A DNA stretch of 64,000 nt from Rhodoblastus sp. 17X3. Its GTDB lineage: Bacteria; Pseudomonadota; Alphaproteobacteria; Rhizobiales; Beijerinckiaceae. Positions 19,343 to 35,369 of this stretch are shown piece by piece (the first letter of the stretch is position 1; every line of letters starts with the position of its first letter). The stretch spans positions 186,001-250,000 of the forward strand of contig NZ_JASHHX010000003.1 in assembly GCF_030056575.1 (NCBI RefSeq), written 5' to 3'. The notes below the pieces were generated by a model. That model saw only the letters and a list, made by a program, of their open reading frames with translations, was not told where the DNA came from and searched no databases. A program made the position numbers and the translations under genes.

Positions 19343-20224
19343 TCACCAGACATAGGCGAATTTCAGGTAGCCCGCGTTGGTCAAGCCCGTGTTGTAGCCT
19401 TCCACGCCGCGCGAATAGCGCAACGTGAGCGACGCAACGGGGGAGAAATGAGCCATGACGCCGGCGCCGAGCGCCGTTTCCTGGTTCGCCAGCGCAGCGA
19501 CGCCGCCGCCATACGCGTAATTGGCGCCGCCCGTCGTCTGCCAGTCGAAGGCCACGAAGGGCTCCCAGAACGTCGTCGCCTTCCAGCTAAGACGCAGGTT
19601 GGTATGTAACGTCGTGCCCTCATTGACGCGGAGCGATCCGGGGGCGCTTTGAATCGAGCGGAAAACCGCGCCCGCATTTCCGGTAAATGCCAGCAGGGGC
19701 GATTGCCAGTCAAAGAAGATGGACGAATAATTCGCCCAATAGTGATTGCTGACTTCGGTCTGGCCGATCGGGATCTGAACGAAGCTCTGCAGGCCGAGGG
19801 TTGTGTCCTTGGTGGGCTTGAACCACACCGCTGGGCCGGTCAGCGGGTCGCCAATGCCCTTGACGGCGTCGAAGGGACCGGTGACCATCACCTCCGGCAC
19901 GATCACTTCATAGGCGAAGCCGACGTTCGGTATGCTGTCGAAGGTCCAGAACCGGACATATTTGGACAGGCCCACGAAAAGGTCCGTGTTGGGAGTCTTG
20001 TACAGTCCGCCCGACGGGCTCCAGGCCTGGTTCGTGCTGTTGAATTCGCCATATTGGACGAAGACGTTGAACGGGTCCTTGAAATTGACCGGAAGATTAT
20101 ATTCCTGCGGCCCGATCACCGCGAAGGTGATATCGGACGCGATTGCGTTCGTAGTTGCGCAAAGCGGGATCAGCATCGCCGCGCCCAATGCAAGGCTCTG
20201 AATTGTCGTCGATTTTGTTCTCAT
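19343..20224 (-). CDS. outer-membrane MetA-like (phenol degradation) protein
   Basis: The 293-residue protein has a signal peptide (about 30 residues, AMLIPLCATTNAIASD) and alternating beta strands through to a C-terminal YLKFAYVW ending on an aromatic residue, as expected for an outer-membrane barrel. The fold resembles the MetA/Phenol_MetA_deg family found next to catabolic oxygenases and PQQ enzymes. It is the last gene of the FMO-PQQ dehydrogenase-cytochrome operon, 19 nt after the cytochrome gene, with a GGAGGG site 6 nt before the ATG. It probably lets a hydrophobic substrate into the periplasm; that is inference. Confidence 0.75.
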   Translation of the reverse strand: MRTKSTTIQSLALGAAMLIPLCATTNAIASDITFAVIGPQEYNLPVNFKDPFNVFVQYGEFNSTNQAWSPSGGLYKTPNTDLFVGLSKYVRFWTFDSIPNVGFAYEVIVPEVMVTGPFDAVKGIGDPLTGPAVWFKPTKDTTLGLQSFVQIPIGQTEVSNHYWANYSSIFFDWQSPLLAFTGNAGAVFRSIQSAPGSLRVNEGTTLHTNLRLSWKATTFWEPFVAFDWQTTGGANYAYGGGVAALANQETALGAGVMAHFSPVASLTLRYSRGVEGYNTGLTNAGYLKFAYVW

Positions 20225-20654: not shown

Positions 20655-22334
20655 TCAGTCCACGGAAAAAACGACGAGCGCGGCGCCCGCGGGCAGCTCC
20701 TTCACTTTCGGGAAGGCGTTGGCCATGAAGCCAACGGCGGCCGAGCCGAGGCCGGTGGGCACGGCGATATATTGCTTGCCCTTGATCGAATAGCTGATCA
20801 GACCGCCGCGCGCCCCCGAGCCCGCATTGAAATGCCACAAGGTCTTGCCGGTTTCGTCGTCGTAGGCGAAGATGTTGCCCTCTACATCCGCGTTGAACAC
20901 GAGGCCGCCCGCAGTCGCGAGCACGCTCGACAGTCCGGGAATGGGATAATCCACGCTCCATTTCTTGGCGCCGGTCACCGGGTCGCGCGCGACCAGCCGA
21001 CCGAGCGGCTTGGCGCCGGGAGGCGCCACGGTCGCCAGTTCGGCGGCGCCAAGAGACAAGGCTGTGACCGTTTTCAAGGAATTTGGATCGTCCTTCTTCG
21101 CGATCGCCGTATTGCAGGCTTCCATCGTGTTCGTGTACCAGAAGCCGGTCTTGGGGCTGTATGCGCCGTGGTTCCAGCTGCGCCCGCCCAGCAGCCATGG
21201 ACAGAGCAGCTTCGTCTCGGTCGCTGAGGGTTCGTTGCGGCCGATCAGTTCGCCTGTCTTCGGATTGATCTCCTTGATCGTGTTTTGAGCGTCGATAAGC
21301 TGCCAGACGTTCCTGAGATCGCCGTTGTCCTTGTCCATGACGAAGACATGGCCGCTCTTGTTGAGATGGACGAGCGACTTCTGGTCGCCCGTGGGCAGCA
21401 GCACCGCCTCGTAGGGAGCGCCATAATCCCAGACGTCATGCGGAATTTCCTGGCGGGCCCATTTCAGCTTGCCGGTCTTGGGATCGAGCGCCAGCAGGCT
21501 GCTGGTATATTTGTTGTCGCCCTCGCGGTCCGCGCCCCAAAAGTCCGGCGACGCATTGCCGATGCCGATATAGATCGTGTCGGTCGTTTCGTCATAGCTG
21601 CCGGGCAGCCAGGCGGCGCCGCCGCCGACATCGCCCGATTTGCCGGGCCAGCTCTTCGGATCATGTACGATCGTGTCGAAGGTCCAGACAGGTTCGCCGG
21701 TGTCGGCGTTGACCGCCCAGATCTTGCCGCGCGTGGGCTGGTCGCCGCCGGTCGAGCCGCCATACAAGACATTGCCCGCGAGCTGCGGCGGCGACGAGAA
21801 GACCGCTGCATACATGTTCTTCTGGTCGATCAGCTGTTGCGACCAGGCTTCCTTGCCGGTCTTCTGGTCCAGAGCAATGAAGCGACCGTCCAGCGAACCG
21901 ATGAAGACCTTTCCCCGTCCCACTGTCACGCCGCGACTTGTGGCGGCGTAAAATGAATCGTTGGAAATCGGGGCGAGCTTGGGCTTGTATTGCCAAATGA
22001 TCTGGCCCGTCTCGCCGTTGAGGGCGTAAACGTGATTATACGGGCCGATGTAATAGAGCACCCCGTCAACTTCGATCGGCGTGGCCTGCAGGCCTGAGGT
22101 GATGTCGCCCGGCTGGGCGATCCACGCGACTTTCAGATTCTTGATATTGCTTTTGTTGATCTTGTCGAGCGGGCTGTAGCGCCAGGCGGCGCCGGTGCGG
22201 TGATATTGCGGCCAGTCGTTGGGCGAGGCCATGCCCATGGCTTGGACCGTCTCGGCGCGCGCCGCGAAAGGAGCCGTGGTCGTGAGCAGGGCGAGGGCGA
22301 ACAGGCGCAGGCGGATATTGGACTGAAACTTCAT
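20655..22334 (-). CDS. PQQ-dependent alcohol dehydrogenase, divergent type
   Basis: The 559-residue protein has a signal peptide ending ARA and an eight-bladed propeller with repeated tryptophan-docking motifs (VWTFDTI, LWHFNAG). The likely Asn ligand is in GIGNASPDFW and the catalytic Asp in HDVWDYGAPYE. Three features differ from methanol/ethanol dehydrogenases. The vicinal Cys-Cys before the NRG motif is replaced by FYAATSRG. The metal-ligand Glu (usually GAEYGVRG) aligns with Asp in GGDQPTRG. The residue two after the catalytic Asp is Gly, so the lanthanide Asp of XoxF is absent. It should oxidise an alcohol in the periplasm, with the cytochrome downstream as acceptor. A GAGG site precedes the ATG. 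Confidence 0.88.
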   Translation of the reverse strand: MKFQSNIRLRLFALALLTTTAPFAARAETVQAMGMASPNDWPQYHRTGAAWRYSPLDKINKSNIKNLKVAWIAQPGDITSGLQATPIEVDGVLYYIGPYNHVYALNGETGQIIWQYKPKLAPISNDSFYAATSRGVTVGRGKVFIGSLDGRFIALDQKTGKEAWSQQLIDQKNMYAAVFSSPPQLAGNVLYGGSTGGDQPTRGKIWAVNADTGEPVWTFDTIVHDPKSWPGKSGDVGGGAAWLPGSYDETTDTIYIGIGNASPDFWGADREGDNKYTSSLLALDPKTGKLKWARQEIPHDVWDYGAPYEAVLLPTGDQKSLVHLNKSGHVFVMDKDNGDLRNVWQLIDAQNTIKEINPKTGELIGRNEPSATETKLLCPWLLGGRSWNHGAYSPKTGFWYTNTMEACNTAIAKKDDPNSLKTVTALSLGAAELATVAPPGAKPLGRLVARDPVTGAKKWSVDYPIPGLSSVLATAGGLVFNADVEGNIFAYDDETGKTLWHFNAGSGARGGLISYSIKGKQYIAVPTGLGSAAVGFMANAFPKVKELPAGAALVVFSVD

Positions 22335-22436: not shown

Positions 22437-24242
22437 TCAGGACAGGTGATGAACGGGCTGCGGTCCGTAGACGGGGATCGGAAGTCCTTCCTTCCGGGCT
22501 TTCAGCTGCAGGGCCAGATAGAGCGAATAATGGCGCGACTGATGCAGGTTGCCGCCGTGGAGCCACAGCCCTTCCTGCTGGGTCGGCTTCCACATGTTGC
22601 GAAGCTCGCCTTCCCAGGGGCCGGGGTCCTTGCTGGTGTTCGAGCCGAGGCCCCAGACCTTGCCGATCCTGTCCGCGACTTCCTGCGAGATCAGATCGGC
22701 GGCCCAGCCGTTCATCGAGCTGAAGCCGGTGGCGTAGACGACCAGATCGGCGGGAAGCTCCGTCCCGTCGGTGAGGACGACGGCGTTCTCCGTCAGGCGC
22801 GCGACATTGACGCCGCTCTTGAGCTTGATGCGGCCGTCCGCGACCAGATCGCAGGCGCCGACGTCGATGTAATAGCCCGAGCCGCGTCGCAGATATTTCA
22901 TGAACAGGCCGGAGCCGTCGTCGCCGAAATCAAGCATGAAGCCGGCGTCCTCCAGCCGCTTGTAGAAATCGGCGTCGCGCTCGCGGATCCGGTCGTAGAT
23001 CGGAATCTGGAACTGGTGCATGATCTTGTAGGGCATGGAGGCGAAGGTCAGGTCCGCCTTCTTCGTGGTCATTCCGGACGCGACGGCGCGCTCGGAATAG
23101 AGGGCGCCAAGGCCGATCTCCATCAGGGAGTCCGATTTGACGATATGGGTGGACGAGCGCTGGACCATGGTCACGTCGGCGCCGCCTTCCCAAAGGGCCG
23201 CGCAGATGTCATGCGCCGAATTATTGCCGCCGACGACCACGACCTTCTTGCCGCGATAGGCGTCCGGGCCGGGGTGTTGCGAGCTGTGCTGCTGCTCGCC
23301 CTTGAAGATCTCCATGCCGGGAAATTTCGGCAGGTTCGGCTTGCCGGACATGCCGGTGGCGAGCACGAGCTGCTTGGGCTTCAGAACCAGTTCGCGGCCT
23401 TCGCGGCGGACGATGACCGTCCATTCCTTCGCGGTCTCGTCATAGGACGCTTTCACGCATTCGGTCGACGCCCAGTAATTGATCTCCATGACCTTGGCGT
23501 ACATTTCGAGCCAGTCGGCGATCTTGTCCTTGGGCGCGAAAACCGGCCAGTTGTCCGGGAAGGGCATATAGGGCAGGTGGTCGTACCAGACGGGATCGTG
23601 CAGGCACAAAGACTTGTACCGCTTGCGCCATTGGTCGCCCGGGCGGGCGTGCTTGTCGATGACGATGGTCGGCACGTCGAGCTGGCGCAGGCGCGCCGCC
23701 AAGGCGATGCCGCCCTGTCCGCCGCCGATGATGAGGCAATAGGGCTGGCGCGACACGCCTAGCTCCGCCTGTTCCTGCGCGCGCTCCTCGGCCCAGGTCT
23801 TGCGGCTGGCGTCGATGCCATGCTTGGCGCCGGCGGGGCGCCGGACGCCCATCGGCTCCTCGAAACCCTTCAACTCCTGCATCGTGGTGAGCAGGGTCCA
23901 GATTCGCCCCTCCTTGATGCGGATCTGGCCATAGCCTCGCGCCAGCGCCGTTTCGAATTCGATCCAGCTTTCGATGACATCGCCGGTCTCGCTCGCCACT
24001 TCGCCGTCGGCGATCCGCAAGTTTTCCGGGCGCGCTTCGGCAAGCTGGGCGCGCAGCATGTCGCCGATCTGCTCCTTGCCTTCCAGCGTCTTGAGGTTCC
24101 AGGTGAACGCCACGAGGTCGCGCCAATAGCAATCCGCCTGGAACAATTCGAGCGCCGCAGGAACATCGCCCGCCGCCAGCGCTTCGCCAAGCCGGTTCAG
24201 AACATCCGTCGCAACGGCTGTCGCCGACGCCTTGTCTCGCAT
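22437..24242 (-). CDS. flavin-containing monooxygenase with N-terminal NTF2-like domain
   Basis: The 601-residue protein has an N-terminal NTF2/SnoaL-like domain of about 120 residues (VLNRLGEALAAGDVPAALEL, ending near LLTTMQELKGFEEP). The class B flavoprotein monooxygenase follows, with FAD motif LIIGGGQGGIALAARL, fingerprint FKGEQQHSSQH, NADPH motif VVVGGNNSAHDICAAL and the ATG motif VVYATGFSSMNG. Such enzymes oxygenate ketones (Baeyer-Villiger) or soft heteroatoms with NADPH and O2. It is the first gene of the minus-strand operon. The ATG at 24242 has AGGGAG 7 nt upstream, while the ATG at 24281 has none. A sigma-54-type promoter lies 80-100 nt upstream. Confidence 0.85.
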   Translation of the reverse strand: MRDKASATAVATDVLNRLGEALAAGDVPAALELFQADCYWRDLVAFTWNLKTLEGKEQIGDMLRAQLAEARPENLRIADGEVASETGDVIESWIEFETALARGYGQIRIKEGRIWTLLTTMQELKGFEEPMGVRRPAGAKHGIDASRKTWAEERAQEQAELGVSRQPYCLIIGGGQGGIALAARLRQLDVPTIVIDKHARPGDQWRKRYKSLCLHDPVWYDHLPYMPFPDNWPVFAPKDKIADWLEMYAKVMEINYWASTECVKASYDETAKEWTVIVRREGRELVLKPKQLVLATGMSGKPNLPKFPGMEIFKGEQQHSSQHPGPDAYRGKKVVVVGGNNSAHDICAALWEGGADVTMVQRSSTHIVKSDSLMEIGLGALYSERAVASGMTTKKADLTFASMPYKIMHQFQIPIYDRIRERDADFYKRLEDAGFMLDFGDDGSGLFMKYLRRGSGYYIDVGACDLVADGRIKLKSGVNVARLTENAVVLTDGTELPADLVVYATGFSSMNGWAADLISQEVADRIGKVWGLGSNTSKDPGPWEGELRNMWKPTQQEGLWLHGGNLHQSRHYSLYLALQLKARKEGLPIPVYGPQPVHHLS

Positions 24243-24323
24243 TTGCAAACTCCCTGTCGCCGATTGCCGGCGAATCTTCATTTTCTGGGATTCGGTTTTG
24301 GGACCGAACCTGCGGAAAGGGAG

Positions 24324-24339
24324 AGCAAAGGCGGCGCCA
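24324..24339 (-). promoter_or_regulatory. sigma-54 (-24/-12) promoter for the FMO-PQQ dehydrogenase operon
   Basis: Read on the minus strand, TGGCGCCGCCTTTGCT has the GG-N10-GC spacing that defines sigma-54 promoters and matches the acoX promoter at 14 of 16 positions. The predicted transcript start is near 24313, 71 nt before the FMO ATG. Confidence 0.7.
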
Positions 24340-24413
24340 GAGAGAGGATTCGAAAAATATGAAAATAAGTCAATAAGTTAACGCGGTTGCAGCAAAGCCG
24401 GAGGCGCGGCGGC

Positions 24414-24433
24414 GGCGCCACATGTGTGGCGCC
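24414..24433. promoter_or_regulatory. inverted repeat, candidate AcoR upstream activator site
   Basis: GGCGCCACA and TGTGGCGCC form a perfect 9-bp inverted repeat with a 2-nt spacer. Its centre is about 110 bp upstream of the predicted FMO transcript start, the usual enhancer distance for sigma-54 activators. The TGTGGCG half-site recurs upstream of acoX. It also lies about 110 bp before the acoR start. Confidence 0.65.
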
Positions 24434-24542
24434 GGGGACGCCTCAGGTTGAAGGTTGAGCCGTTACATGCGAAATTCCCCGATTAACAAATCCAAAAAAT
24501 CATCCGCGAAAAAAAACAGCGGAATCCGGGAGGAACGTGGTG

Positions 24543-26453
24543 ATGCGCGGCGCGCAATCGGCCCATATCGACGAACTCGTGCGCGCGGCGGCGGAGCGCA
24601 ATTCGCGGCGCGACGCGATCATCCATGATTCATGGCTGCGCTGCGTGACCGAGCACAAGCTCGACCCGAGCGTGCTGCGCGAGGCGCGCATCGTCACGCC
24701 GGGGCAATTGCGCGAGCATCGCGACGCGATGGACGAGTTCCTGCACACGGCGCGCTTCGGCGTCGAGATGCTGTATCGGCAGGTGTCAGGCCTCGGCTAT
24801 GTCCTGCTTCTGACCGACGCCAATGGCGTCACCGTCGATTTCATGGGCGATCCGACCTTCGCCAATAATTGCCGCAAGGCAGGGCTTTATCTTGGCGCCG
24901 ACTGGAACGAGAGCTATGCCGGCACCTGCGCCGTCGGCACCTGCATTACGACGGGCGAGGCGCTGACCGTTCACCAGACCGATCATTTCGACGCCACTCA
25001 CATTCCGCTGACCTGCACCGCCGCGCCGATTTACGATCCCTCGGGCAATATGGCCGCTGTGCTCGATATTTCCGCCCTGCGGTCGCCCGAGCCGAAGGAG
25101 GGCCAATTGCTCGCCCAGCAACTGGTGAAATCCTTCGCGCACAAGATCGAGACGGCCAATCTCCTGAACCGCTTCCGCAACGAATGGATTCTGCGGCTCG
25201 CGGTGTGCCCGGAATTCGCCGACGTCGATCCGGATGTGGTCATCGCCGTCGACGGTTCCGGCTGGATCATCGGCGTGAACAATCAGGCCCGCATCATGCT
25301 GCAGCAGGAAATGCCGGCGCCCGATCCGTCCAGGCCGCCGCGCCGGGTGTCGATTTCAGACATCTTCGAGTGCAGCGTCGATGACTTTCCGTTTTACGTT
25401 CACTCGCGGCCGAGCGAACAGCGCGGGTTGCGGCTGCGTCGAAGCGGTCGGACTCTGTTCGGCCAGGCGCTGCCGCCGCCGCCAAAAAAGACGACGGGAG
25501 CGCCGCTGCGCGAGCGTCCTCTGCCGGCGGCGCTCGCGGCGCTGGCGGGCGATGACGACGCGATGCGCAATGTCCTTTCGCGTGCGACCAAGCTGGTCAA
25601 TACGCAGATGGGGCTGCTGATCCACGGCGAAACCGGCACCGGCAAGGAACATCTGACCAAGGCGCTGCACAGCGTCAGCCCGCGCGCGGGCAAGCCCTTC
25701 ATCGCCGTGAATTGCGCGGCTTTGCCTGAAGCCCTGATCGAGAGCGAATTGTTCGGCCATGAGTCCGGCGCCTTTACGGGCGCAAAAGCCAAGGGCAAGA
25801 AGGGACTGGTGCTTGAGGCCAATGGCGGCACCCTCTTCCTCGACGAGATCGGCGACATGCCGCTGGCCTCGCAGACCCGTCTGCTCCGCGTGCTGGCGGA
25901 ACGCGAGCTGACCCCAGTCGGGGCGACGCGCCCGATCCCGGTGGATATCCGCGTGATCGCCGCGACCCATCGCGATCTGGTCGAGCTGATAAAGAGCGGC
26001 AATTTCCGCGAGGACCTCTATTTCCGCCTCAGCGGCGCGGTGCTGAAACTGCCGCCGCTACGAGAGCGGCTGGATTTCGAATGGCTGGTGGAGAAGATGC
26101 TGGCCGAGCGGCGGGCGCAATTCGCGCGCGCCTTCGCCCTGTCGCCTGCGGCGCTCGCGCGGATGCGGCAATATGACTGGCCGGGCAATATTCGCGAGTT
26201 GATCAATGCGCTGGATTACGCCTGCGCGATCGCGGAAGGCGATCTGATCCAGCTCGACGATCTGCCGGACCGGATCGCCTGCGGCGACGCCGACGAGCGG
26301 AAGGTCAGCGGCTCGGCTGAAGAACTCCTCGCCGAATTGCGCCGCAATCGTTGGAACGTCTCCCAGGTCGCGCGGCTTCGCGGCGTGGACCGCACTACGA
26401 TCCACCGGCAGATTCGCCGCCACGGCTTGATGGCGTTCAGGAACCCCGGCTGA
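24543..26453 (+). CDS. acoR: AcoR-like sigma-54-dependent transcriptional activator
   Basis: The 636-residue enhancer-binding protein has an N-terminal GAF-type sensor (ESYAGTCAVGTCITTGEALT) and a second variable sensory part to about residue 330. The AAA+ domain has Walker A GETGTGKE at about residue 362 and the sigma-54 contact loop GAFTGA at about 409-414. It ends with a Fis-type HTH (WNVSQVARLRGVDRTTIHRQ). AcoR proteins activate acetoin catabolic genes. It lies between two operons that both have matching sigma-54 promoters and inverted-repeat sites, so it probably controls both. GGGAGG is 9 nt before the ATG; GTG at 24540 is an alternative start. Confidence 0.92.
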   Translation: MRGAQSAHIDELVRAAAERNSRRDAIIHDSWLRCVTEHKLDPSVLREARIVTPGQLREHRDAMDEFLHTARFGVEMLYRQVSGLGYVLLLTDANGVTVDFMGDPTFANNCRKAGLYLGADWNESYAGTCAVGTCITTGEALTVHQTDHFDATHIPLTCTAAPIYDPSGNMAAVLDISALRSPEPKEGQLLAQQLVKSFAHKIETANLLNRFRNEWILRLAVCPEFADVDPDVVIAVDGSGWIIGVNNQARIMLQQEMPAPDPSRPPRRVSISDIFECSVDDFPFYVHSRPSEQRGLRLRRSGRTLFGQALPPPPKKTTGAPLRERPLPAALAALAGDDDAMRNVLSRATKLVNTQMGLLIHGETGTGKEHLTKALHSVSPRAGKPFIAVNCAALPEALIESELFGHESGAFTGAKAKGKKGLVLEANGGTLFLDEIGDMPLASQTRLLRVLAERELTPVGATRPIPVDIRVIAATHRDLVELIKSGNFREDLYFRLSGAVLKLPPLRERLDFEWLVEKMLAERRAQFARAFALSPAALARMRQYDWPGNIRELINALDYACAIAEGDLIQLDDLPDRIACGDADERKVSGSAEELLAELRRNRWNVSQVARLRGVDRTTIHRQIRRHGLMAFRNPG

Positions 26454-26463
26454 GCGCGCCGAC

Positions 26464-26492
26464 CTGTGGCGCCGGACGCCACAGCTGTGGCG
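26464..26492. promoter_or_regulatory. AcoR-type upstream activator sites before acoX
   Basis: CTGTGGCG (26464-26471) and CGCCACAG (26477-26484) are a perfect 8-bp inverted repeat with a 5-nt spacer, followed directly by another CTGTGGCG half-site (26485-26492). They lie about 105-120 bp upstream of the predicted acoX transcript start and share the TGTGGCG core with the site at 24414-24433. Confidence 0.65.
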
Positions 26493-26567
26493 CGGCGCCC
26501 CGCCGGACCGCAGAGCGCCGTTTATTGAAATATAACTATTTCAATTAGATGCTGGCCTTTGCCGCGC

Positions 26568-26583
26568 TGGCGCCGCGCTTGCT
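26568..26583 (+). promoter_or_regulatory. sigma-54 (-24/-12) promoter for acoXABC
   Basis: TGGCGCCGCGCTTGCT has the invariant GG-N10-GC spacing and differs at only two of 16 positions from the promoter of the divergent operon. The predicted start is near 26594, giving a leader of about 25 nt before acoX. Confidence 0.75.
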
Positions 26584-26590
26584 GAGCACT

Positions 26591-26612
26591 CCTCAAGAAA
26601 AAAATCTTGAGG
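26591..26612 (+). repeat. hairpin overlapping the acoX ribosome site
   Basis: CCTCAAGA and TCTTGAGG pair perfectly around six A bases. The right arm contains the GAGG of the acoX ribosome site. If transcription starts near 26594, only about five base pairs would form in the RNA, so a role in translation is uncertain. Confidence 0.4.
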
Positions 26613-26618
26613 AAACCC

Positions 26619-27653
26619 ATGCCGCTCAAAGTCGGCGTCATCGCCAATCCGGTTTCTGGTCGCGACATCCGCCGCGTCATCGCTCAGGCCAACAGCCTGC
26701 AGGTCGCGGATCGCGCCAACATGCTTCTGCGCGCGCTCGCCGGCCTCGCCGCCTGCGGCGTGGCCGAGGCCGTGATGATGCTGGAACGCGGCGGCGTCGC
26801 CGGCCATGTCCTGCGCCATCTTACGCAGTCAGCCAATCGCGGCGAGACCCGCTTTCCGCGCCTGTCGTTCCTCGAAATGCCCGTCACCGGCACGGTCGAG
26901 GACTCGCGCCTCGCCGCGCGAAAATTGGCCGGCGAGGGCGTCGCCGCGATCATCGTTCTCGGCGGCGACGGCACGCATCGGGCTGTTGCGGCGGAATGCG
27001 GCGCCACGCCCATCGCTGGCATTTCGACCGGCACCAATAACGCCTTTCCAGAATATCGCGAGCCGACCGTCACGGGTTTCGCGACCGGCCTTGCCGCGAG
27101 CGGCGCTGTCCCGAAGGACGTGGCGATCGCGGCCAATAAATGGCTGAAGGTGAGCATCGAAGGCGCGCCGTCCGAAATCGCTTTGGTCGATGTCGCCGTC
27201 GTCACCGAGCAGAACCTCGGCGCCCGCGCGCTGTGGCGGGCCGACACCTTCCGCGAACTTTACGTGACCTTCGCCGATCCGCAGGTCATCGGCATGTCCG
27301 CGATCGCCGGGCTGGTCGAGCCGATGGGGCGGGACGAGGCGGACGGCCTGATGCTTCGGCTGGCGCCGGCGCACGCAGCCGCGGCAATCGTGCGGGCGCC
27401 GATCGCTCCCGGCCTGGTCGTGTCGATCGGGGTGGAAGACTGGCGCCGTCTCCCGGCCGGTCGCGCTTTCACCCCTGCGCTTGCGGCGGGGTCGATCGCG
27501 CTCGACGGCGAGCGCGAATTGTCCTTCGGCCCGAAGCGGAAGGTTTCGATCGAGCTGGTCGAAAACGCCTTCTCCACCATCAATGTCGCGGCCGTCATGC
27601 GCTACGCGGCGGCCAAAGGGCTGCTGCGCGAAGGCTGCCTCGCCTGCGCCTGA
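26619..27653 (+). CDS. acoX: AcoX, ATP-NAD kinase-like acetoin catabolism protein
   Basis: The 344-residue protein has the NAD-kinase/diacylglycerol-kinase fold motif IIVLGGDGTHRAVAAECG and the N-terminal KVGVIANPVSGRDIRR. AcoX is regularly the first gene of acetoin dehydrogenase operons in proteobacteria, and its biochemical role is still unclear. The ATG has GAGGA 5 nt upstream. It is followed by acoA after 39 nt and preceded by a sigma-54 promoter and activator sites. Confidence 0.88.
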   Translation: MPLKVGVIANPVSGRDIRRVIAQANSLQVADRANMLLRALAGLAACGVAEAVMMLERGGVAGHVLRHLTQSANRGETRFPRLSFLEMPVTGTVEDSRLAARKLAGEGVAAIIVLGGDGTHRAVAAECGATPIAGISTGTNNAFPEYREPTVTGFATGLAASGAVPKDVAIAANKWLKVSIEGAPSEIALVDVAVVTEQNLGARALWRADTFRELYVTFADPQVIGMSAIAGLVEPMGRDEADGLMLRLAPAHAAAAIVRAPIAPGLVVSIGVEDWRRLPAGRAFTPALAAGSIALDGERELSFGPKRKVSIELVENAFSTINVAAVMRYAAAKGLLREGCLACA

Positions 27654-27692: not shown

Positions 27693-28676
27693 ATGTCCAG
27701 CAATCCATTTCCCTTGTCGAGGGACGAGCTGTTGCGGGCCTACCGCACCATGCGCACCATCCGCGATTTCGAGGAGCGGCTGCATTTCGAATTCGCCAAG
27801 GGCGACATTCCCGGCTTCGTCCATCTCTATGCCGGCGAGGAAGCCTGCGCGACCGGCATCATGATGCACCTCACGGACATCGACCGCATCGCCTCGACCC
27901 ATCGCGGCCATGGCCATTGCATCGCCAAGGGCGTCGACGTCCATGAAATGATGGCCGAGATCTATGGCAAGGCCACGGGCTCGTGTCGGGGCAAGGGCGG
28001 CTCGATGCATATCGCAGACCTCTCCAAGGGCATGATGGGCGCAAATGGCATTCTGGGCGCCGGCGCGCCCTTGATCTGCGGCGCCGCGCTCGCCTCGAAA
28101 TTCCGTGGCGACCACGGTGTAGGCGTCACCTTTTTCGGCGATGGCGCAGCCAATCAGGGCACTGTGCTGGAAAGCATGAATCTCGCCGCCGTGTGGAATC
28201 TTCCGGTCCTCTTCGTCGTCGAGAACAATGGTTACGCCGAAGCTACGTCGGTCGAATACGCTACGGCGGTTGATTCCTATGTCGATCGCGCTTCGGGCTT
28301 CGGCATGCCGGGCGTCACCGTCGACGGGACCGACTTTTTCGCGGTCTATGAGGCGGCGGGCGAGATTATCAATCGCGCGCGCGAGGGCGGCGGGCCGGCC
28401 TTGCTCGAATGCAGCGTCACGCGCTTCTACGGCCATTTTGAAGGCGACGCCCAGACATATAAGGCCAAGGGCGAAAATGAGTTCAACCGCGCCAATCGCG
28501 ACTGCCTGAAGATCTTTCGCGCGCGCGTTTGCGACGCCGGACTGGCGAGCGAGCGCGACTTCGCCCTGATCGATGTTGAGGTCGCGGCGTTGATCGACGC
28601 CGCTGTTTCATCGGCCAAGGACGCGCCCCTGCCGCATGCGCGCGAATTGCTCACCGACGTTTACGTTTCCTACTGA
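27693..28676 (+). CDS. acoA: acetoin dehydrogenase E1 alpha subunit (TPP-dependent)
   Basis: This 327-residue E1 alpha has the thiamine diphosphate motif GDGAANQGTVLESMNLAAVW ending near VENNGYAE, and the phosphorylation-loop-like STHRGHGHCIAKG region. With AcoB it cleaves acetoin into acetaldehyde and an acetyl group handed to the lipoyl arm of AcoC. It has a strong AAGGAGG site. The position between acoX and acoB and the family order acoXABC support the acetoin assignment over pyruvate dehydrogenase. Confidence 0.9.
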   Translation: MSSNPFPLSRDELLRAYRTMRTIRDFEERLHFEFAKGDIPGFVHLYAGEEACATGIMMHLTDIDRIASTHRGHGHCIAKGVDVHEMMAEIYGKATGSCRGKGGSMHIADLSKGMMGANGILGAGAPLICGAALASKFRGDHGVGVTFFGDGAANQGTVLESMNLAAVWNLPVLFVVENNGYAEATSVEYATAVDSYVDRASGFGMPGVTVDGTDFFAVYEAAGEIINRAREGGGPALLECSVTRFYGHFEGDAQTYKAKGENEFNRANRDCLKIFRARVCDAGLASERDFALIDVEVAALIDAAVSSAKDAPLPHARELLTDVYVSY

Positions 28677-28700: not shown

Positions 28701-29723
28701 ATGACACGCAAGATCAGCTTCAAGACGGCGATCAACGAGGCGCTGGACCTCGAAATGACCCGCGACCCAAATGTCATCCTGCTCGGCGAGGATATTGTCG
28801 GCGGCTCCGGCGCGCCCGGCGAAGCCGACGCCTGGGGCGGTGTGCTGGGCGTCACCAAGGGGCTTTACGCCAAGCACGGCGGCCGCCTGCTCGACACGCC
28901 GCTGTCGGAATCGGCCTATGTCGGCGCGGCCATCGGCGCCGCCGCCTGCGGCATGCGCCCGGTCGCAGAACTAATGTTTATCGATTTCATGGGCGTCTGT
29001 TTCGACCAGATTTTCAACCAGGCGGCCAAGTTCCGCTACATGTTCGGCGGCAAGGCCAAGACGCCCGTGGTCATCCGCGCCATGGTCGGCGCGGGCTTCC
29101 GCGCCGCCGCCCAGCATTCGCAGATGCTCACGCCGCTTTTCACCCATATTCCGGGGCTGAAGGTGGTCTGTCCGTCGAACGCCTATGAGGCGAAAGGCCT
29201 GCTCATTCAGGCCATCCGCGACGACGATCCGGTCATTTTCTGCGAGCACAAGAACCTCTATGGCCTCGAATGCGAGGTTCCGGAGGAGTCCTACGCTATT
29301 CCGTTCGGCGAGGCGAATATCGCGCGCGAGGGCAAGGACGTCACCATCGTCAGCTATGGCCTGACCGTCAACCGCGCGCTCGAAGCGGCGGAAAAACTCG
29401 CCCGCAAGGATCGCGTCGAGGCGGAGGTGATCGACCTGCGCACCCTGTCGCCGATCGATTGGGACACGGTTCTTGAAAGCGTCGAGAGCACCGGACGCCT
29501 CGTCGTGGTGGACGAGGCCAATCCGCGCTGCTCGCTCGCCAGCGACGTCGCGGCCTATGTGGCGCAGCACGCCTTCGGCGCGCTCAAGTCCGCGCCGCAG
29601 ATGGTGACGGCGCCGCATACGCCGACGCCCTTCTCGCCTTCGCTGGAAGACCTCTATGTCCCCTCGGCGGACGCCATCGTCGCCGCCGTCGGCAAGACCA
29701 TCGCCCGCGCCAAAGCGGCCTGA
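28701..29723 (+). CDS. acoB: acetoin dehydrogenase E1 beta subunit
   Basis: This 340-residue transketolase-like E1 beta has NVILLGEDIVGGSGAPGEAD near the N-terminus, the pyrimidine-binding Glu in this block, and the C-terminal domain VEAEVIDLRTLSPIDWDT. It forms the alpha2beta2 E1 with AcoA. It follows acoA by 24 nt with a GAAGGAG site and precedes acoC by 11 nt, so the three genes are clearly one operon. Confidence 0.92.
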   Translation: MTRKISFKTAINEALDLEMTRDPNVILLGEDIVGGSGAPGEADAWGGVLGVTKGLYAKHGGRLLDTPLSESAYVGAAIGAAACGMRPVAELMFIDFMGVCFDQIFNQAAKFRYMFGGKAKTPVVIRAMVGAGFRAAAQHSQMLTPLFTHIPGLKVVCPSNAYEAKGLLIQAIRDDDPVIFCEHKNLYGLECEVPEESYAIPFGEANIAREGKDVTIVSYGLTVNRALEAAEKLARKDRVEAEVIDLRTLSPIDWDTVLESVESTGRLVVVDEANPRCSLASDVAAYVAQHAFGALKSAPQMVTAPHTPTPFSPSLEDLYVPSADAIVAAVGKTIARAKAA

Positions 29724-29734
29724 AGGAGCGCCAT

Positions 29735-30850
29735 ATGAATGCGAATATCACGCCGATCGTCATGCCCAAATGGGGCCTGTCGATGTCGGAAGGAAAGCTG
29801 ACCGGCTGGCTGAAGCCGGTCGGCGCCAAAATCGCTGTCGGCGACGAGATCATGGAGGTCGAGACCGACAAGATCGTCAATGTCGTCGAGGCGGACGCTG
29901 CGGGAACCTTGCGCCGCGTCATTGGCGAAGACGGCGTCGTCTATCCGGTCAAGGCGCTCATTGGCGTCATCGCCGGCGATGACGTCGCGGACGAGGAGAT
30001 CGAGGCTTTCGTCGCCGGTTACTCCGCTCCCGCCAGCGAGGAGGGCGGCGACGAGGACTCCGGTGCGCGCTATGAGTTCGTCGCCACGCCCTTTGGCCGA
30101 CTACGCTACGCCAAGCGGGGCGAGGGCGCGGAGGTCGTCATTCTGGTTCATGGCTTCGGCGGCGACCTCGACAACTGGCTTTTCAATATCGAGGCACTGG
30201 CCGGAGCAGGGACGGTTTACGCTCTCGATCTGCCCGGCCACGGCCAGTCGGACAAGAAGCTTGGCGAGGCGAGCCTTGGCTGGCTGGCGTCGGCCGTCAT
30301 CGCCTTCATGGACGCTGTCGGCGAGTCATCAGCGCATCTGGTCGGTCATTCCATGGGCGGCGCCGTCGCCGCCCGCGTGGCGCTGGACCAGCCGGGGCGG
30401 GTCAAATCGCTGGCGTTGATCGGTTCGGCGGGACTCGGCCCCGAGATCAATGGAGCCTACCTCGATGGCTTTGTGGCGGCTGGCGCGCGGCGCGATCTCA
30501 AGCCTCTGCTTGAACAACTGTTCGACGACCCGGCGCTCGTCAACCGCCAGCTGGTCGACGAGGTTCTTAAATACAAGCGCATCGATGGGGTCGAAGCCGC
30601 CTTGCGGAGCCTCGCGGCGGGCGTGTTCCCCGAAGGGCGTCAGACTTCAGTGCTCGCTGAAGGCCTGAAAGCGTCCGGAATCCCCGCTCTGGTGATCTGG
30701 GGCGAGACGGATCGCATCATCCCGGCCGCGCATGCGTCGGCTCTGGGCGCAGGCGCCAAATCGGAGACGCTCGCCGGCGCCGGCCACATGGTCCAGATGG
30801 AAAAGGCTGGCCGCGTGAACGAACTGCTGCTCGCGCATCTTTCGGCCTAA
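29735..30850 (+). CDS. acoC: acetoin dehydrogenase E2: lipoyl domain fused to alpha/beta hydrolase
   Basis: The 371-residue protein has a lipoyl domain in the first 80 residues (PKWGLSMSEGKLTGWLKPVG, lipoylated Lys in VETDKIVN), a short linker rich in Ala and Glu, and then an alpha/beta hydrolase (VILVHGFGGDLDNWLF, nucleophile elbow GHSMGG, C-terminal GAGHMVQME). This lipoyl-hydrolase layout replaces the classical E2 acyltransferase core in proteobacterial acetoin dehydrogenases. It takes the acetyl group from E1 to CoA. No E3 (dihydrolipoamide dehydrogenase) gene is in the window. A strong terminator follows. Confidence 0.92.
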   Translation: MNANITPIVMPKWGLSMSEGKLTGWLKPVGAKIAVGDEIMEVETDKIVNVVEADAAGTLRRVIGEDGVVYPVKALIGVIAGDDVADEEIEAFVAGYSAPASEEGGDEDSGARYEFVATPFGRLRYAKRGEGAEVVILVHGFGGDLDNWLFNIEALAGAGTVYALDLPGHGQSDKKLGEASLGWLASAVIAFMDAVGESSAHLVGHSMGGAVAARVALDQPGRVKSLALIGSAGLGPEINGAYLDGFVAAGARRDLKPLLEQLFDDPALVNRQLVDEVLKYKRIDGVEAALRSLAAGVFPEGRQTSVLAEGLKASGIPALVIWGETDRIIPAAHASALGAGAKSETLAGAGHMVQMEKAGRVNELLLAHLSA

Positions 30851-31667: not shown

Positions 31668-32384
31668 TCAGGCCCGCCGCTTGACGTCGGCGGTCGATAA
31701 TTTTTCGACGGACTGGATGAGATTGGCGAAGCGTTCCCCCTGCACCATGACGTGCTGGCGCAGTTTTTCCGCCGCGAGATCGGCGTTATTGGCGAGGATC
31801 GTGGCGACAATCTGCTCATGCTCGGCGAAGGACGACGCAATGCGTGCGGGAACGCGCAATTGCAGACGCCGGTAAGGCCGCGCGCGGCGCTGCATTTCCA
31901 GCGTTTGCTCGATCAGGAATTCGTTGCCGCTCGCCTGGTAGAGCGCGACGTGGAAGATTTCGTTCAAACGGTAATATTCGTCCGGGTCATTCACGCCCCG
32001 GCAGGCCTCATGCGCCGCTAGCAGCTTCTGCAGTTGGAACGGCGTCGCGCGCCTGGCGGCGAAACTGCCGCAGAGCGCTTCCAGCTCGGCCATGAATTCA
32101 AACATTTCACACAGCCGGCGCGGCGAGGCCGGGGCGACGGCCCAGCCCTTGCGCGGCATTTTCTCGATCATGTGGATCGAGCCGAGGCGGATCAACGCCT
32201 CGCGGATCGGCGTGCGCGAGACGCCGAAGGCTTCGGCGAGCTCGACTTCGTCGAGGCGCGCGCCCGGCGGATATTCCCCGGTGACGATCCGTTCCTCGAT
32301 GGCTTCGAGCAATTGTTCCGACAGGCGGTGTGGCGATTGGTCCATGGCGTCGACGCTGGAAAAAATGATTTCTGAATCCTTCAT
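31668..32384 (-). CDS. mdcY: GntR/FCD-family regulator of malonate genes (MdcY-like)
   Basis: The 238-residue protein has an N-terminal GntR winged helix (RIVTGEYPPGARLDEVELAE then FGVSRTPIREALIRL) and a C-terminal FCD domain (EYYRLNEIFHVALYQASGNE, EHEQIVATILANNADLAAEK). It is divergent from madL, and MdcY of Acinetobacter is the repressor of an operon with the same gene order. ATG at 32384 was chosen; ATG at 32345 is possible, and neither has a strong ribosome site. GTATAC-centred repeats lie in the shared promoter region. Confidence 0.8.
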   Translation of the reverse strand: MKDSEIIFSSVDAMDQSPHRLSEQLLEAIEERIVTGEYPPGARLDEVELAEAFGVSRTPIREALIRLGSIHMIEKMPRKGWAVAPASPRRLCEMFEFMAELEALCGSFAARRATPFQLQKLLAAHEACRGVNDPDEYYRLNEIFHVALYQASGNEFLIEQTLEMQRRARPYRRLQLRVPARIASSFAEHEQIVATILANNADLAAEKLRQHVMVQGERFANLIQSVEKLSTADVKRRA

Positions 32385-32417
32385 ACAAAATGCTTGACAC
32401 TGTGTCCACATCAATGT

Positions 32418-32453
32418 TTTCTGTATACATAAATTGGAATTGGAATACAGAAA
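32418..32453. promoter_or_regulatory. inverted repeat in mdcY-madL intergenic region, candidate MdcY operator
   Basis: TTTCTGTAT (32418-32426) and ATACAGAAA (32445-32453) form a perfect 9-bp inverted repeat with an 18-nt spacer. The left arm includes the small palindrome TGTATACA (32422-32429). A further TTCATACAA half-site overlaps the mdcY start. GTATAC-centred palindromes are typical operators of FCD-type GntR repressors. Confidence 0.55.
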
Positions 32454-32479
32454 TCCAACCAGCACAGGGGAGGGAAGCG

Positions 32480-32920
32480 ATGGTGATTTTTGGCACCGCG
32501 CTATTGGCGGCCTGCTATCTTGCAGGCGTCATCATAGGCGAGGGAATTGCGGCGCTGATCGGCGTCAAGGCGAATGTCGGCGGCGTCGGCATCGCGATGC
32601 TGCTTTTGATAGCGGCGCAGCATTATTTGCAAAAGCGCGGTCTGTTCGCTGTCGACACCGCCAAAGGCGTGACTTTCTGGGCGATGATGTACATCCCCGT
32701 GGTCGTCGCGATGGCGGCGACGCAGAACGTGATCGTCGCGTTCAAGAGCGGCCCGATCGCCCTGCTCGCCGCCGCCGGCTCCTTCGCGATCTGCATATTG
32801 TTCATCTCATTGATCAATCGGGTCATCGAACGCGCCCATATCGCCAGCGCGGCGCTCGAGCCGGTCTCGGACGATCACGATCCCGCCAGCGACCTCTCCG
32901 TCGCCCCCGACCATCGCTGA
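32480..32920 (+). CDS. madL: malonate transporter subunit MadL
   Basis: The 146-residue membrane protein has four hydrophobic segments and begins MVIFGTALLAACYLAGVIIG, with the MadL GVKANVGGVGIAMLLL loop. With MadM it forms the sodium-dependent malonate importer. The ATG has GGAGG 6 nt upstream, and the longer frame from 32390 overlaps the operator region and was rejected. It is the first gene of the mdc operon, 11 nt before madM. Confidence 0.93.
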   Translation: MVIFGTALLAACYLAGVIIGEGIAALIGVKANVGGVGIAMLLLIAAQHYLQKRGLFAVDTAKGVTFWAMMYIPVVVAMAATQNVIVAFKSGPIALLAAAGSFAICILFISLINRVIERAHIASAALEPVSDDHDPASDLSVAPDHR

Positions 32921-32931
32921 GGACCGTCGCC

Positions 32932-33696
32932 ATGCTGCACATGATCGAAAAAACCATTCTCGACAATCCGCTGATCACCGCCTTCGCCTTCGTCGGCGCT
33001 GTGATCTGGGTTTCGAACCAGTTGGCCCACCATCTCACCCGTGGCCGCGTCGCAGGCTCCGCCATCGCCGTTCTCGCTGGACTGGCGCTCGCTTATTGGG
33101 GCGGCGCGATCACCGGAAAGGCCAAGGGTCTCGCCGATGTCGCCCAATTTGGCGGCCTCGCCTTGATGGGCGGCGCCATGATGCGGGATTTCACCATCGT
33201 CGCCACCGCGAGCGAGGTTCATGTCGATGAGGCGAAAAAGGCCGGCTGGCTCGGCTTTCTCGCTCTGGTGCTGGGCACGGTTCTGCCCTTCATCGTCGGC
33301 GTCGGCGTGGCTTACGCCTTTGGGCATCGCGACCCGGTGACGCTCACCACCATCGGCGCGGGCGCCGTCACCTATATCGTCGGGCCGATCACCGGAGCCG
33401 CAATCGGCGCCTCCTCGGACGTCATTGCGCTCAGCATCGCCACTGGCGTGATCAAGGCGATCCTGGTGATGATCTTCACCCCGGTGTTCGCCCGCTTCAT
33501 GCGGCTGAATAATCCGCAGGCGGCCATGGTCTTCGGCGGTCTCGCAGGAACCGTCAGCGGCGTGAGCGCGGGACTTGCCGCGACCGACCGTCGCCTTGTG
33601 CCTTATGGCGCGCTGGTCGCGACCTTCCACACCGGGTTCGGCTGCCTGCTTGGCCCTTCCATTCTCTTCCTCGCGGTCAAGGCCCTGTTCGGCTGA
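32932..33696 (+). CDS. madM: malonate transporter subunit MadM
   Basis: The 254-residue protein has about seven membrane segments and MadM features such as QFGGLALMGGAMMRDFTIVA and GAVTYIVGPITGAAIGASSD. It is the larger subunit of the MadLM malonate symporter. The ATG has GAGGA 8 nt upstream. The reading frame opens far upstream inside madL in another frame, and that part is not real. Confidence 0.93.
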   Translation: MLHMIEKTILDNPLITAFAFVGAVIWVSNQLAHHLTRGRVAGSAIAVLAGLALAYWGGAITGKAKGLADVAQFGGLALMGGAMMRDFTIVATASEVHVDEAKKAGWLGFLALVLGTVLPFIVGVGVAYAFGHRDPVTLTTIGAGAVTYIVGPITGAAIGASSDVIALSIATGVIKAILVMIFTPVFARFMRLNNPQAAMVFGGLAGTVSGVSAGLAATDRRLVPYGALVATFHTGFGCLLGPSILFLAVKALFG

Positions 33697-33725
33697 GAAC
33701 GGGACGAACACAGAAAGGCATGTTC

Positions 33726-35369
33726 ATGCGAGACTGGAACGCTCAGGCGCGCAACCGGCAGGCGCGGCTCGCCCGCGCCGCTACCCTGGCGAAAGGCAAG
33801 GAAGTCGCCGCCGCCAACATCGGCGCCTTGCTCGAAGCCGTGCTGGAGCCCGGCGACCGCGTCTGCCTCGAAGGCAACAATCAGAAGCAGGCGGATTTTC
33901 TCGCCGCCGCGCTTGCCGGTCTGGACTCCGAAACGGTCCACGACCTGCATATGGTGCAGTCCGTCCTGGCTCTGCCCGAACATATTGACGTGTTCGAACG
34001 CGGCGTCGCCTCGAAGCTGGATTTCTCCTTTTCCGGCCCGCAGGCGGGCCGCCTCGCCAAGCTGGTCGGCGCCAATCAGATCAGGATCGGCGCGATCCAC
34101 ACCTATCTCGAATTGTTCGGGCGCTATTTCGTCGATCTGACGCCCCGCGTCAGCCTCGTCTGCGCCCAGGCCGCAGACAGGCAAGGCAATCTCTACACCG
34201 GCCCGAACACCGAGGATACGCCGGTGATCGTCGAGGCGACCGCATTCAAGAGCGGTATCGTCATTGCCCAGGTCAACGAGATCGTCGATACGCTGCCGCG
34301 CGTCGATATTCCCGGCGGCTGGGTGGACTTTGTCGTGCAAAGCCCGAAGCCGCATTTCATCGAGCCTCTGTTCACCCGCGATCCGGCCCAGATTTCCGAA
34401 ATCCAGGTCCTGATGGCCATGATGGCGATCAAGGGAATTTACGCCGAATATGGCGTGAACCGCCTGAACCACGGCATCGGCTTCGACACCGCGGCGATCG
34501 AGCTGATTCTGCCGACCTATGCGGAATCGCTCGGGCTGAAAGGAAAGATCTGCCAGCATTGGGCGCTCAACCCGCACCCGGCGCTGATCCCGGCCATCGA
34601 GGCCGGCTTTGTCGAGAGCGTGCATTCCTTCGGCTCCGAGCTTGGCATGGAGGCCTATATCCGCGCCCGGCCCGATATTTTCTTCACCGGCGCCGATGGC
34701 TCGATGCGCTCCAACCGCGCCATGTGCCAGGCGGCGGGCCATTACGCCTGCGACATGTTCATCGGTTCGACCTTGCAGGTCGATCTCGCGGGCAATTCCT
34801 CCACCGCCACGCTCGGCCGCATCGCCGGCTTCGGCGGCGCGCCGAACATGGGTTCTGACGCGCGCGGCAGACGTCATGCCAGCAATGCGTGGCTAAAGGC
34901 GGGTCGCGAGGCGCGCGAAGGCCGCAATCTCATCCCGCGCGGCCAGAAACTGGTCGTGCAGATGGTCGAGACCTTCCGCGAGCATATGCAGCCCGCCTTC
35001 GTGGAAAAGCTCGACGCCTGGGAGCTGGCCGAAACCGCCAATATGGATCTGCCGCCGGTGATGATCTACGGCGAGGACGTCAGCCATATCCTGACGGAAG
35101 AAGGCATCGCCAACCTGCTGCTCTGCCGCACCGACGAGGAGCGCGAGCAGGCCATTCGCGGCGTCGCCGGCTATACGCCCGTGGGCCTCGGACGCGACAA
35201 GCGAATGGTCGAAAATTTGCGTGACCGCGGCATCATCCGCCGTCCCGAAGACCTCGGCATCGACAAGCGTCACGCCACCCGCGACCTGCTCGCCGCGCGC
35301 TCCGTCAAAGACCTCGTGCGCGCTTCCGGCGGTCTCTACGACCCGCCCAAACGTTTCCGCAACTGGTAG
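33726..35369 (+). CDS. mdcA: malonate decarboxylase alpha subunit (acetyl-S-ACP:malonate ACP transferase)
   Basis: The 547-residue subunit is of usual length, with the start RDWNAQARNRQARLARA, the GDRVCLEGNNQKQADFLA block and GADGSMRSNRAMCQAAGHYA. It swaps the acetyl group on the ACP thiol for malonate, giving malonyl-ACP and free acetate. ATG at 33726 is 7 nt after AAAGG, so it is preferred over ATG at 33720. It is followed 7 nt later by mdcC. Confidence 0.95.
   Translation: MRDWNAQARNRQARLARAATLAKGKEVAAANIGALLEAVLEPGDRVCLEGNNQKQADFLAAALAGLDSETVHDLHMVQSVLALPEHIDVFERGVASKLDFSFSGPQAGRLAKLVGANQIRIGAIHTYLELFGRYFVDLTPRVSLVCAQAADRQGNLYTGPNTEDTPVIVEATAFKSGIVIAQVNEIVDTLPRVDIPGGWVDFVVQSPKPHFIEPLFTRDPAQISEIQVLMAMMAIKGIYAEYGVNRLNHGIGFDTAAIELILPTYAESLGLKGKICQHWALNPHPALIPAIEAGFVESVHSFGSELGMEAYIRARPDIFFTGADGSMRSNRAMCQAAGHYACDMFIGSTLQVDLAGNSSTATLGRIAGFGGAPNMGSDARGRRHASNAWLKAGREAREGRNLIPRGQKLVVQMVETFREHMQPAFVEKLDAWELAETANMDLPPVMIYGEDVSHILTEEGIANLLLCRTDEEREQAIRGVAGYTPVGLGRDKRMVENLRDRGIIRRPEDLGIDKRHATRDLLAARSVKDLVRASGGLYDPPKRFRNW

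Follow-up and report, generated by a model that had tools for sequence, protein, structure and literature searches.

A predicted AcoR regulon joins acetoin catabolism and a JsFMO-type monooxygenase operon through shared candidate operators in Rhodoblastus

In Rhodoblastus sp. 17X3, the regulator AcoR, once activated by its ligand, very probably drives both acoXABC and a flavin monooxygenase (FMO) operon through RpoN, acting from operators that the two promoters share. A two-operon AcoR regulon with a common site had been proposed in a preliminary description of this DNA, and sequence comparison supports that proposal once the register of the acoX-side repeat is corrected. The mode of control is already known; what appears to be new is a member of the regulon, together with an operator code that we propose. 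Positions given here refer to the window, by which we mean the whole 64,000-nucleotide stretch that was analysed, and the genome comprises 4,183,822 bases in 68 contigs. The gene map bears out the placement of acoR between the minus-strand FMO gene and the plus-strand acoXABC genes (region 24313–26594), and the features of the locus are as follows.

19343–20224, minus strand: gene whose product matches no Pfam or NCBIfam model
20655–22334, minus strand: PQQ-dependent alcohol dehydrogenase, the gene after FMO (domain search)
22437–24281, minus strand: FMO gene, a JsFMO-type flavin monooxygenase (domain search and alignment to 8ACS)
24324–24339, minus strand: −24/−12 element of the FMO operon, TGGCGCCGCCTTTGCT, with a predicted start near 24313
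24368–24380, plus strand: IHF-like site, one mismatch to WATCAANNNNTTR, between the FMO operator and promoter
24414–24433: candidate operator for AcoR at the FMO operon, with GCCACA-TG-TGTGGC at 24417–24430 as its core; it also lies upstream of acoR
24537–26453, plus strand: acoR, with GAF, AAA+ (GAFTGA) and Fis-type helix-turn-helix (HTH) domains and the helix VDRTTIHRQ
26465–26470, plus strand: distal half-site TGTGGC; two helical turns (21 bp) separate it from the matching arm of the proximal operator
26478–26491: candidate AcoR operator of acoX, GCCACA-GC-TGTGGC
26568–26583, plus strand: −24/−12 element of acoX, TGGCGCCGCGCTTGCT, with a predicted start near 26594
26619–27653, plus strand: acoX, ATP-NAD-kinase-like, first gene of acoXABC
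27693–28676, plus strand: acoA, E1 alpha
28701–29723, plus strand: acoB, E1 beta
29735–30850, plus strand: acoC, acetoin dehydrogenase dihydrolipoyl acetyltransferase (NF011457, 471.7 bits against a cut-off of 307)

AcoR has the architecture of an AcoR-type activator and is linked to acoXABC: it combines a GAF sensor (domain score 36.1), an AAA+ domain with the GAFTGA motif (Sigma54_activat, 222.1) and a Fis-type HTH (HTH_8, 23.0 against a cut-off of 22). Among the 25 listed of the 28 NCBIfam models that AcoR matched, none bears the name AcoR and none reaches its cut-off. AcoC contains lipoyl and hydrolase domains and lies above the curated cut-off for the acetoin dehydrogenase E2 component. 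The closest named locus (L005), in a Rhodoblastus metagenome bin, encodes an AcoR that is 97% identical.

On the other side of acoR, the FMO has an N-terminal SnoaL-like domain (SnoaL_2, 26.0 bits, just under the cut-off of 27) and a monooxygenase domain. Its residues 24–614 align to JsFMO (PDB 8ACS), a type II flavin monooxygenase from Janthinobacterium svalbardensis, with 1031 bits, an almost full-length match that runs through the SnoaL-like domain. The catalytic residues His-216, Asp-217 and Tyr-458 of that enzyme (PMC10028610) are aligned in the FMO, with an inferred numbering offset of 16. Translation more likely starts at the ATG at 24242 than at the ATG at 24281, because one relative (L115) has no ATG corresponding to 24281. 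The PQQ dehydrogenase gene probably belongs to the FMO operon, to judge from gene order and strand, and would be co-transcribed with FMO. Membership of the gene at 19343–20224, whose product is outer-membrane-like when judged by eye, is uncertain; the order FMO, PQQ dehydrogenase and this gene also occurs in L133 and L135.

Both operons are preceded by elements with GG at −24, GC at −12 and fixed spacing, as in sigma-54-dependent promoters. The two were described at the outset as near-identical and do share 14 of their 16 bases; the FMO element is also found in three relatives (L005, L057 and L115). No other stretch of the window matches TGGCRC-N5-TTGCW exactly. If one mismatch is tolerated, the window contains 11 matches against 6.96 expected, so by themselves the −24/−12 elements are weak evidence. 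A scan of the whole genome gave 25 exact matches, compared with 7 when the pattern was reversed, and rpoN is present, identified by a single match to the DNA-binding domain of sigma-54.

Within the genome, the candidate operators are restricted to these two promoters. GCCACANNTGTGGC, that is, the perfect palindrome GCCACA-NN-TGTGGC, occurs twice in the genome, both times at this locus, and widening the pattern to GCMACANNTGTKGC yielded no further perfect site genome-wide. From the palindrome centre to the −12 G downstream of it, the distance is 97.5 bp at FMO and 96.5 bp at acoX. Were sites placed at random, the probability that both fell in the intervals 70–130 bp upstream of the genome's 25 elements would be about 1e-7.

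The inverted TGTGGCG repeats of the preliminary description both exist, but they are not the same object. The FMO repeat reads CGCCACA-TG-TGTGGCG, whereas the acoX repeat had been formed by pairing TGTGGCG (26465–26471) with CGCCACA (26477–26483), which is the opposite arrangement and places the arms in the wrong register. In that form it occurs once in the window, against 0.00 expected, and it consists of one arm of the 26478–26491 palindrome together with an additional upstream TGTGGC. We dropped TGTGGCG-N5-CGCCACA as the common acoX operator because relatives share the opposite form with a 2-bp gap. In the corrected register both centres lie about 110 bp from the predicted starts, rather than at 110 and 120 bp. 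The additional TGTGGC, the distal half-site, is kept in the window and in L005, L057, L115 and L054; at its position relatives frequently carry a further complete palindrome, and 16 of 25 within-promoter spacings between sites of at least 10/12 are 21 or 23 bp.

A search of related genomes, which had been suggested as a check, found the sites and promoters kept in orthologous loci. The comparison drew on 84 promoter regions, each belonging to an acoR-linked FMO, acoX, acoA or PQQ gene, which reduce to 51 once near-copies are removed; acoR loci with no recognised target gene contribute none, and AcoR loci collected later are excluded. From the 78 loci, the 16 weakest (L067–L082) were left out of these promoter counts and of the helix counts below, and L083–L111 were unused. 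A perfect (12/12) GCMACA-NN-TGTKGC site is present in 36 of the 51 non-redundant promoters (65 of 84 with near-copies), and a site of at least 11/12 in 41 (74 of 84). In the same 51 promoters, half-site gaps of 0, 1 or 3–12 instead of 2 gave 0–1 perfect sites, and the 175 rearranged half-sites that have no word in common with GCMACA averaged 0.03 and never exceeded 2. Of the rearrangements that do share words with it, two reach 15/51 and two reach 7, scores that are high because of those shared words.

A sigma-54-like element scoring at least 10 precedes 48 of the 51 promoters, a count that includes two errors (L046 and L047) in which the scan took the palindrome itself as the element and which give no distance. 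Of the distances from operator to −12, 44 of 53 fall at 85.5–86.5, 96.5–99.5, 107.5–109.5 or 118.5–121.5 and 9 lie outside; these are not independent observations. On these promoters, which share ancestry, the resultant length is 0.62–0.63 for periods of 10.5–11.5 and 0.52–0.61 for periods of 10, 10.3 and 12, which is consistent with helical phasing without proving it. Between 30 and 60 bp upstream of −12 the promoters are AT-rich, and an IHF-like site occurs in 15 of 39 promoters against 1.2 expected from single-base shuffles, an expectation that is probably too low because such shuffling breaks up the AT-rich stretch. On the acoX side of the window, the IHF-like sites have two mismatches. 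A hairpin in the acoX leader was not general among relatives, and its covariation was not above shuffles (112 of 500 were as high).

AcoR is present in 5 of the 10 sampled genomes of the genus. Exact sites are found in four of these five and in none of the five genomes without AcoR (Fisher p 0.048); the fifth AcoR-bearing genome (G197) has 11/12 sites at both promoters. Among 199 sampled genomes of the family, exact sites occur in 10 of 20 with a close AcoR and in 25 of 179 without one, so the motif alone is not specific.

The inclusion of the FMO operon in the regulon is supported by a comparison of FMO genes across genomes. FMO is present in 38 of 398 genomes of the phylum and 32 of 199 genomes of the family, from which 59 loci were taken, the window included and several of them near-copies. 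A sigma-54-like element scoring at least 11.9 precedes FMO in all 17 loci beside an AcoR relative of at least 42% identity, a cut chosen after seeing the table, and in 1 of the 42 others. These 42 divide into loci beside weaker, partial AcoR matches of 31–41% (0 of 7) and loci without such a neighbour (1 of 35, L205).

Three gene orders recur: acoR with acoXABC, acoR with FMO, and acoR between both. The both-sided order forms one supported clade (the window, L005, L057 and L115). Next to it are L054 and L116, with a PQQ gene in the FMO place, and further out lie FMO-only loci and then an aco-only Bradyrhizobium. This history bears on what AcoR senses. It is possible, though in our view rather unlikely, that AcoR controls both operons in response to a ketone or alcohol of the FMO and PQQ dehydrogenase instead of acetoin, with acoXABC as a downstream module. 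The window's AcoR clade joins FMO-only activators (Bradyrhizobium and others) before any aco-only one, AcoR is again found next to FMO in three families (f43, f51 and f55) that do not belong to the class, and JsFMO, according to the partial source available, oxidises a range of ketones (PMC10028610). However, the next outer branch (L013) is aco-only, and L054 and L116 have acoXABC and the dehydrogenase with no FMO seen beside them, nor is there one in genome G197. On these grounds the aco linkage is about as old as the FMO linkage.

Evidence that AcoR itself is the binder comes from its recognition helix, from two related loci in which the AcoR frame is cut short, and from a Bacillus thuringiensis site considered further below. 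We defined class A as [DN]R[ST]TxHR, class B as [SA]RMTxYR and class C as SRPTxYR, and counted sites of at least 11/12 within 600 bp of acoR at 108 loci, or 55 after near-copy removal. In the non-redundant set, GCMACA accompanies 30 of 32 class-A helices. Class B (n=8) has GTGACA in four loci, GCMACA in none and four loci without a GTGACA site, and class C (n=4) has GTTACA in three, GTGACA in one and GCMACA in none. The remaining helices (n=11) have GCMACA once and GTTACA once. Over all 108 loci, GCMACA is found in 67 of 79 class-A, GTGACA in 4 of 10 class-B and GTTACA in 6 of 7 class-C loci, and neither GTGACA nor GTTACA occurs in any of the 79 class-A loci. The AcoRs of Burkholderiales in this comparison have class-B helices, and three of their loci (L042, L044 and L051) carry a perfect GTGACA-NN-TGTCAC.

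When near-copies are kept, 12 of the 79 class-A loci lack a GCMACA site of at least 11/12 within 600 bp of acoR. Ten of the 12 belong to Azospirillum and have neither aco nor FMO genes beside acoR; they have no perfect site anywhere in the DNA examined and count against reading the motif as the AcoR site; near-copy removal dropped all ten. In a tree built without the HTH, two helix-class changes separate the classes, and a tree-based sign test offers one independent pair and cannot reach significance. Because there are only two class changes, the association of half-site sequence with AcoR helix class is suggestive and not statistically independent. In L052 and L053 the AcoR frame ends before the HTH; the acoX sigma-54-like element is kept, and no GCMACA site of at least 10/12 is present.

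The same data bear on a pair of alternatives that we regard as very unlikely: that some other regulator binds the palindromes, or that their role is to repress acoR, with AcoR acting elsewhere. The FMO-side palindrome ends 107 bp before the GTG codon at which acoR begins, so autoregulation is possible, and of 17 genome matches to the sigma-54 activator domain, 12 of them strong, the comparison of C-termini covered 10 of the strong ones. Yet a class-A helix is found in AcoR and in none of the nine other activators compared, the identity of the site follows the helix class, and the site recurs at acoX promoters that lie downstream of acoR, away from its own promoter. That the repeats are instead transcript hairpins (an acoR terminator at about 26465–26489) or chance products is strongly disfavoured and, in our estimate, barely credible: the acoX repeat does begin 12 bp after the acoR stop codon and the DNA is GC-rich, but no T-run follows that repeat, no gene ends at the FMO copy, and the exact gap and a similar distance are kept across gene orders while rearranged half-sites do not recur.

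Known AcoR systems share parts of this arrangement. As quoted in PMC12648084, the AcoR site of Bacillus thuringiensis (Peng et al. 2020) contains GAGACA-GA-TGTCTC, which resembles the sites described here in its ACA-NN-TGT core, its gap and its inverted arms, and Bacillus AcoR is likewise a sigma-54-type activator of acetoin catabolism. It differs in the outer half-site bases (GAG, against GCC or GCA here), and the quoted material mentions no FMO partner. GAGACA, entered in our half-site test as an arbitrary control word, is thus also the Bacillus half-site. The B. subtilis operator, in the part of PMC10018347 available, is said to be palindromic and to have two pairs of sites. In Alcaligenes eutrophus, acoR provides a proteobacterial parallel as an activator of acetoin catabolism (Kruger and Steinbuchel 1992, as cited in PMC3543383). 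By contrast, the excerpt of PMC12648084 on Phytobacter AcoR proposes, on the basis of EMSA, a non-palindromic site downstream of the aldB start, which does not fit a palindromic operator and counts against one. A reconstruction of sigma-54 regulons in Clostridiales used comparable motif inference for AcoR and other activators, but in a different phylum, and the AcoR target given in the available part of that paper is acoABCL (PMC6615313). The JsFMO paper, in the portions available, concerns enzymology and structure and does not use the term 'gene cluster' (PMC10028610), whereas here the FMO is tied to AcoR and acoXABC. Our literature search, in the sources as far as they were accessible, returned no GCMACA or GTGACA AcoR operator and no AcoR–FMO regulon.

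We propose that AcoR acts as a ligand-sensing enhancer-binding protein whose GAF domain would sense acetoin or a related small ketone. On sensing its ligand it would assemble into an AAA+ oligomer and bind NNNACA-NN-TGTNNN (here GCCACA-NN-TGTGGC) about 110 bp upstream of both sigma-54 promoter starts. The acoX operator would comprise the full palindrome and the conserved distal half-site, and the FMO operator a single palindrome. A DNA loop, aided by the AT-rich bend and perhaps by an IHF site, would bring AcoR into contact with RNA polymerase–sigma54, so that acoXABC and the FMO–PQQ dehydrogenase operon are turned on together. The PQQ dehydrogenase may make acetoin or another ketone from a diol or alcohol, the aco enzymes would cleave acetoin, and the FMO would oxidise ketones, in keeping with the oxidation of ketones by JsFMO (PMC10028610), a Baeyer–Villiger enzyme.

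More broadly, and tentatively, with chances that we place just short of even, AcoR relatives may be Proteobacteria-wide regulators of JsFMO-type Baeyer–Villiger monooxygenases and of acetoin dehydrogenase that read NNNACA-NN-TGTNNN by a helix code, the Rhodoblastus AcoR joining both modules for C4 diols and ketones. In such a code, class A would specify GCC or GCA, class B GTG and class C GTT, a few helix residues setting the outer bases.

What began as a guess from one sequence thus becomes a regulon that is conserved and can be put to the test. For proteobacterial AcoR it suggests both operators and helix residues, and a predictable half-site code would aid the building of acetoin or ketone sensors. 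The locus also offers a pointer to the natural inducer and role of JsFMO-type monooxygenases; if the Proteobacteria-wide link between AcoR and FMO is true, it would give these orphan enzymes a physiological role.

Translation of the flavin monooxygenase (FMO) gene probably starts at ATG 24242 rather than at ATG 24281, because L115, a relative in which acoR likewise lies between FMO and acoXABC, has no ATG equivalent to 24281, whereas the surroundings of 24242 are conserved. Hairpins recur in the FMO leader. A further FMO gene, at locus L205, has a consensus sigma-54-like element with the -12 G 12 bp ahead of the FMO match, and no AcoR relative was found at this locus.

The acoX leader contains a perfect 8-bp hairpin at 26591-26612 (arms CCTCAAGA and TCTTGAGG), within which the presumed ribosome-binding site of acoX falls. 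Shorter forms occur in L115 and in L057, a second relative with the same gene arrangement, and the hairpin is not a general feature of the acoX leaders compared. The acoXABC operon is followed by:

31671-35369, a gene for a GntR-type regulator, with mdcA (malonate decarboxylase) lying farther along

Ten AcoR relatives from Azospirillum (L021-L024, L026, L033, L035, L036, L049 and L056) carry class-A recognition helices ([DN]R[ST]TxHR). In the locus DNA examined, none of the ten is accompanied by an aco or FMO gene or by a perfect operator (GCMACA-NN-TGTKGC). The large gene adjoining the relative in L022 is, presumably, hydantoinase-like, judging by its sequence.

The genome of the window encodes a second AcoR relative (L132, G000:C5:103373-105322; 41% identity), with a PQQ-type gene nearby. 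Its helix, VARITLYRS, is unlike that of the window AcoR, and tandem TGTTACA words lie upstream of the gene (L132:1336-1353).

In Ruegeria and a Roseovarius (L052 and L053), the AcoR frame stops after the AAA+ region and lacks the HTH. These frames adjoin acoXABC and a sigma-54-like element is present; a search of both loci for the operator found none. The HTH-less frames may have arisen by frameshift.
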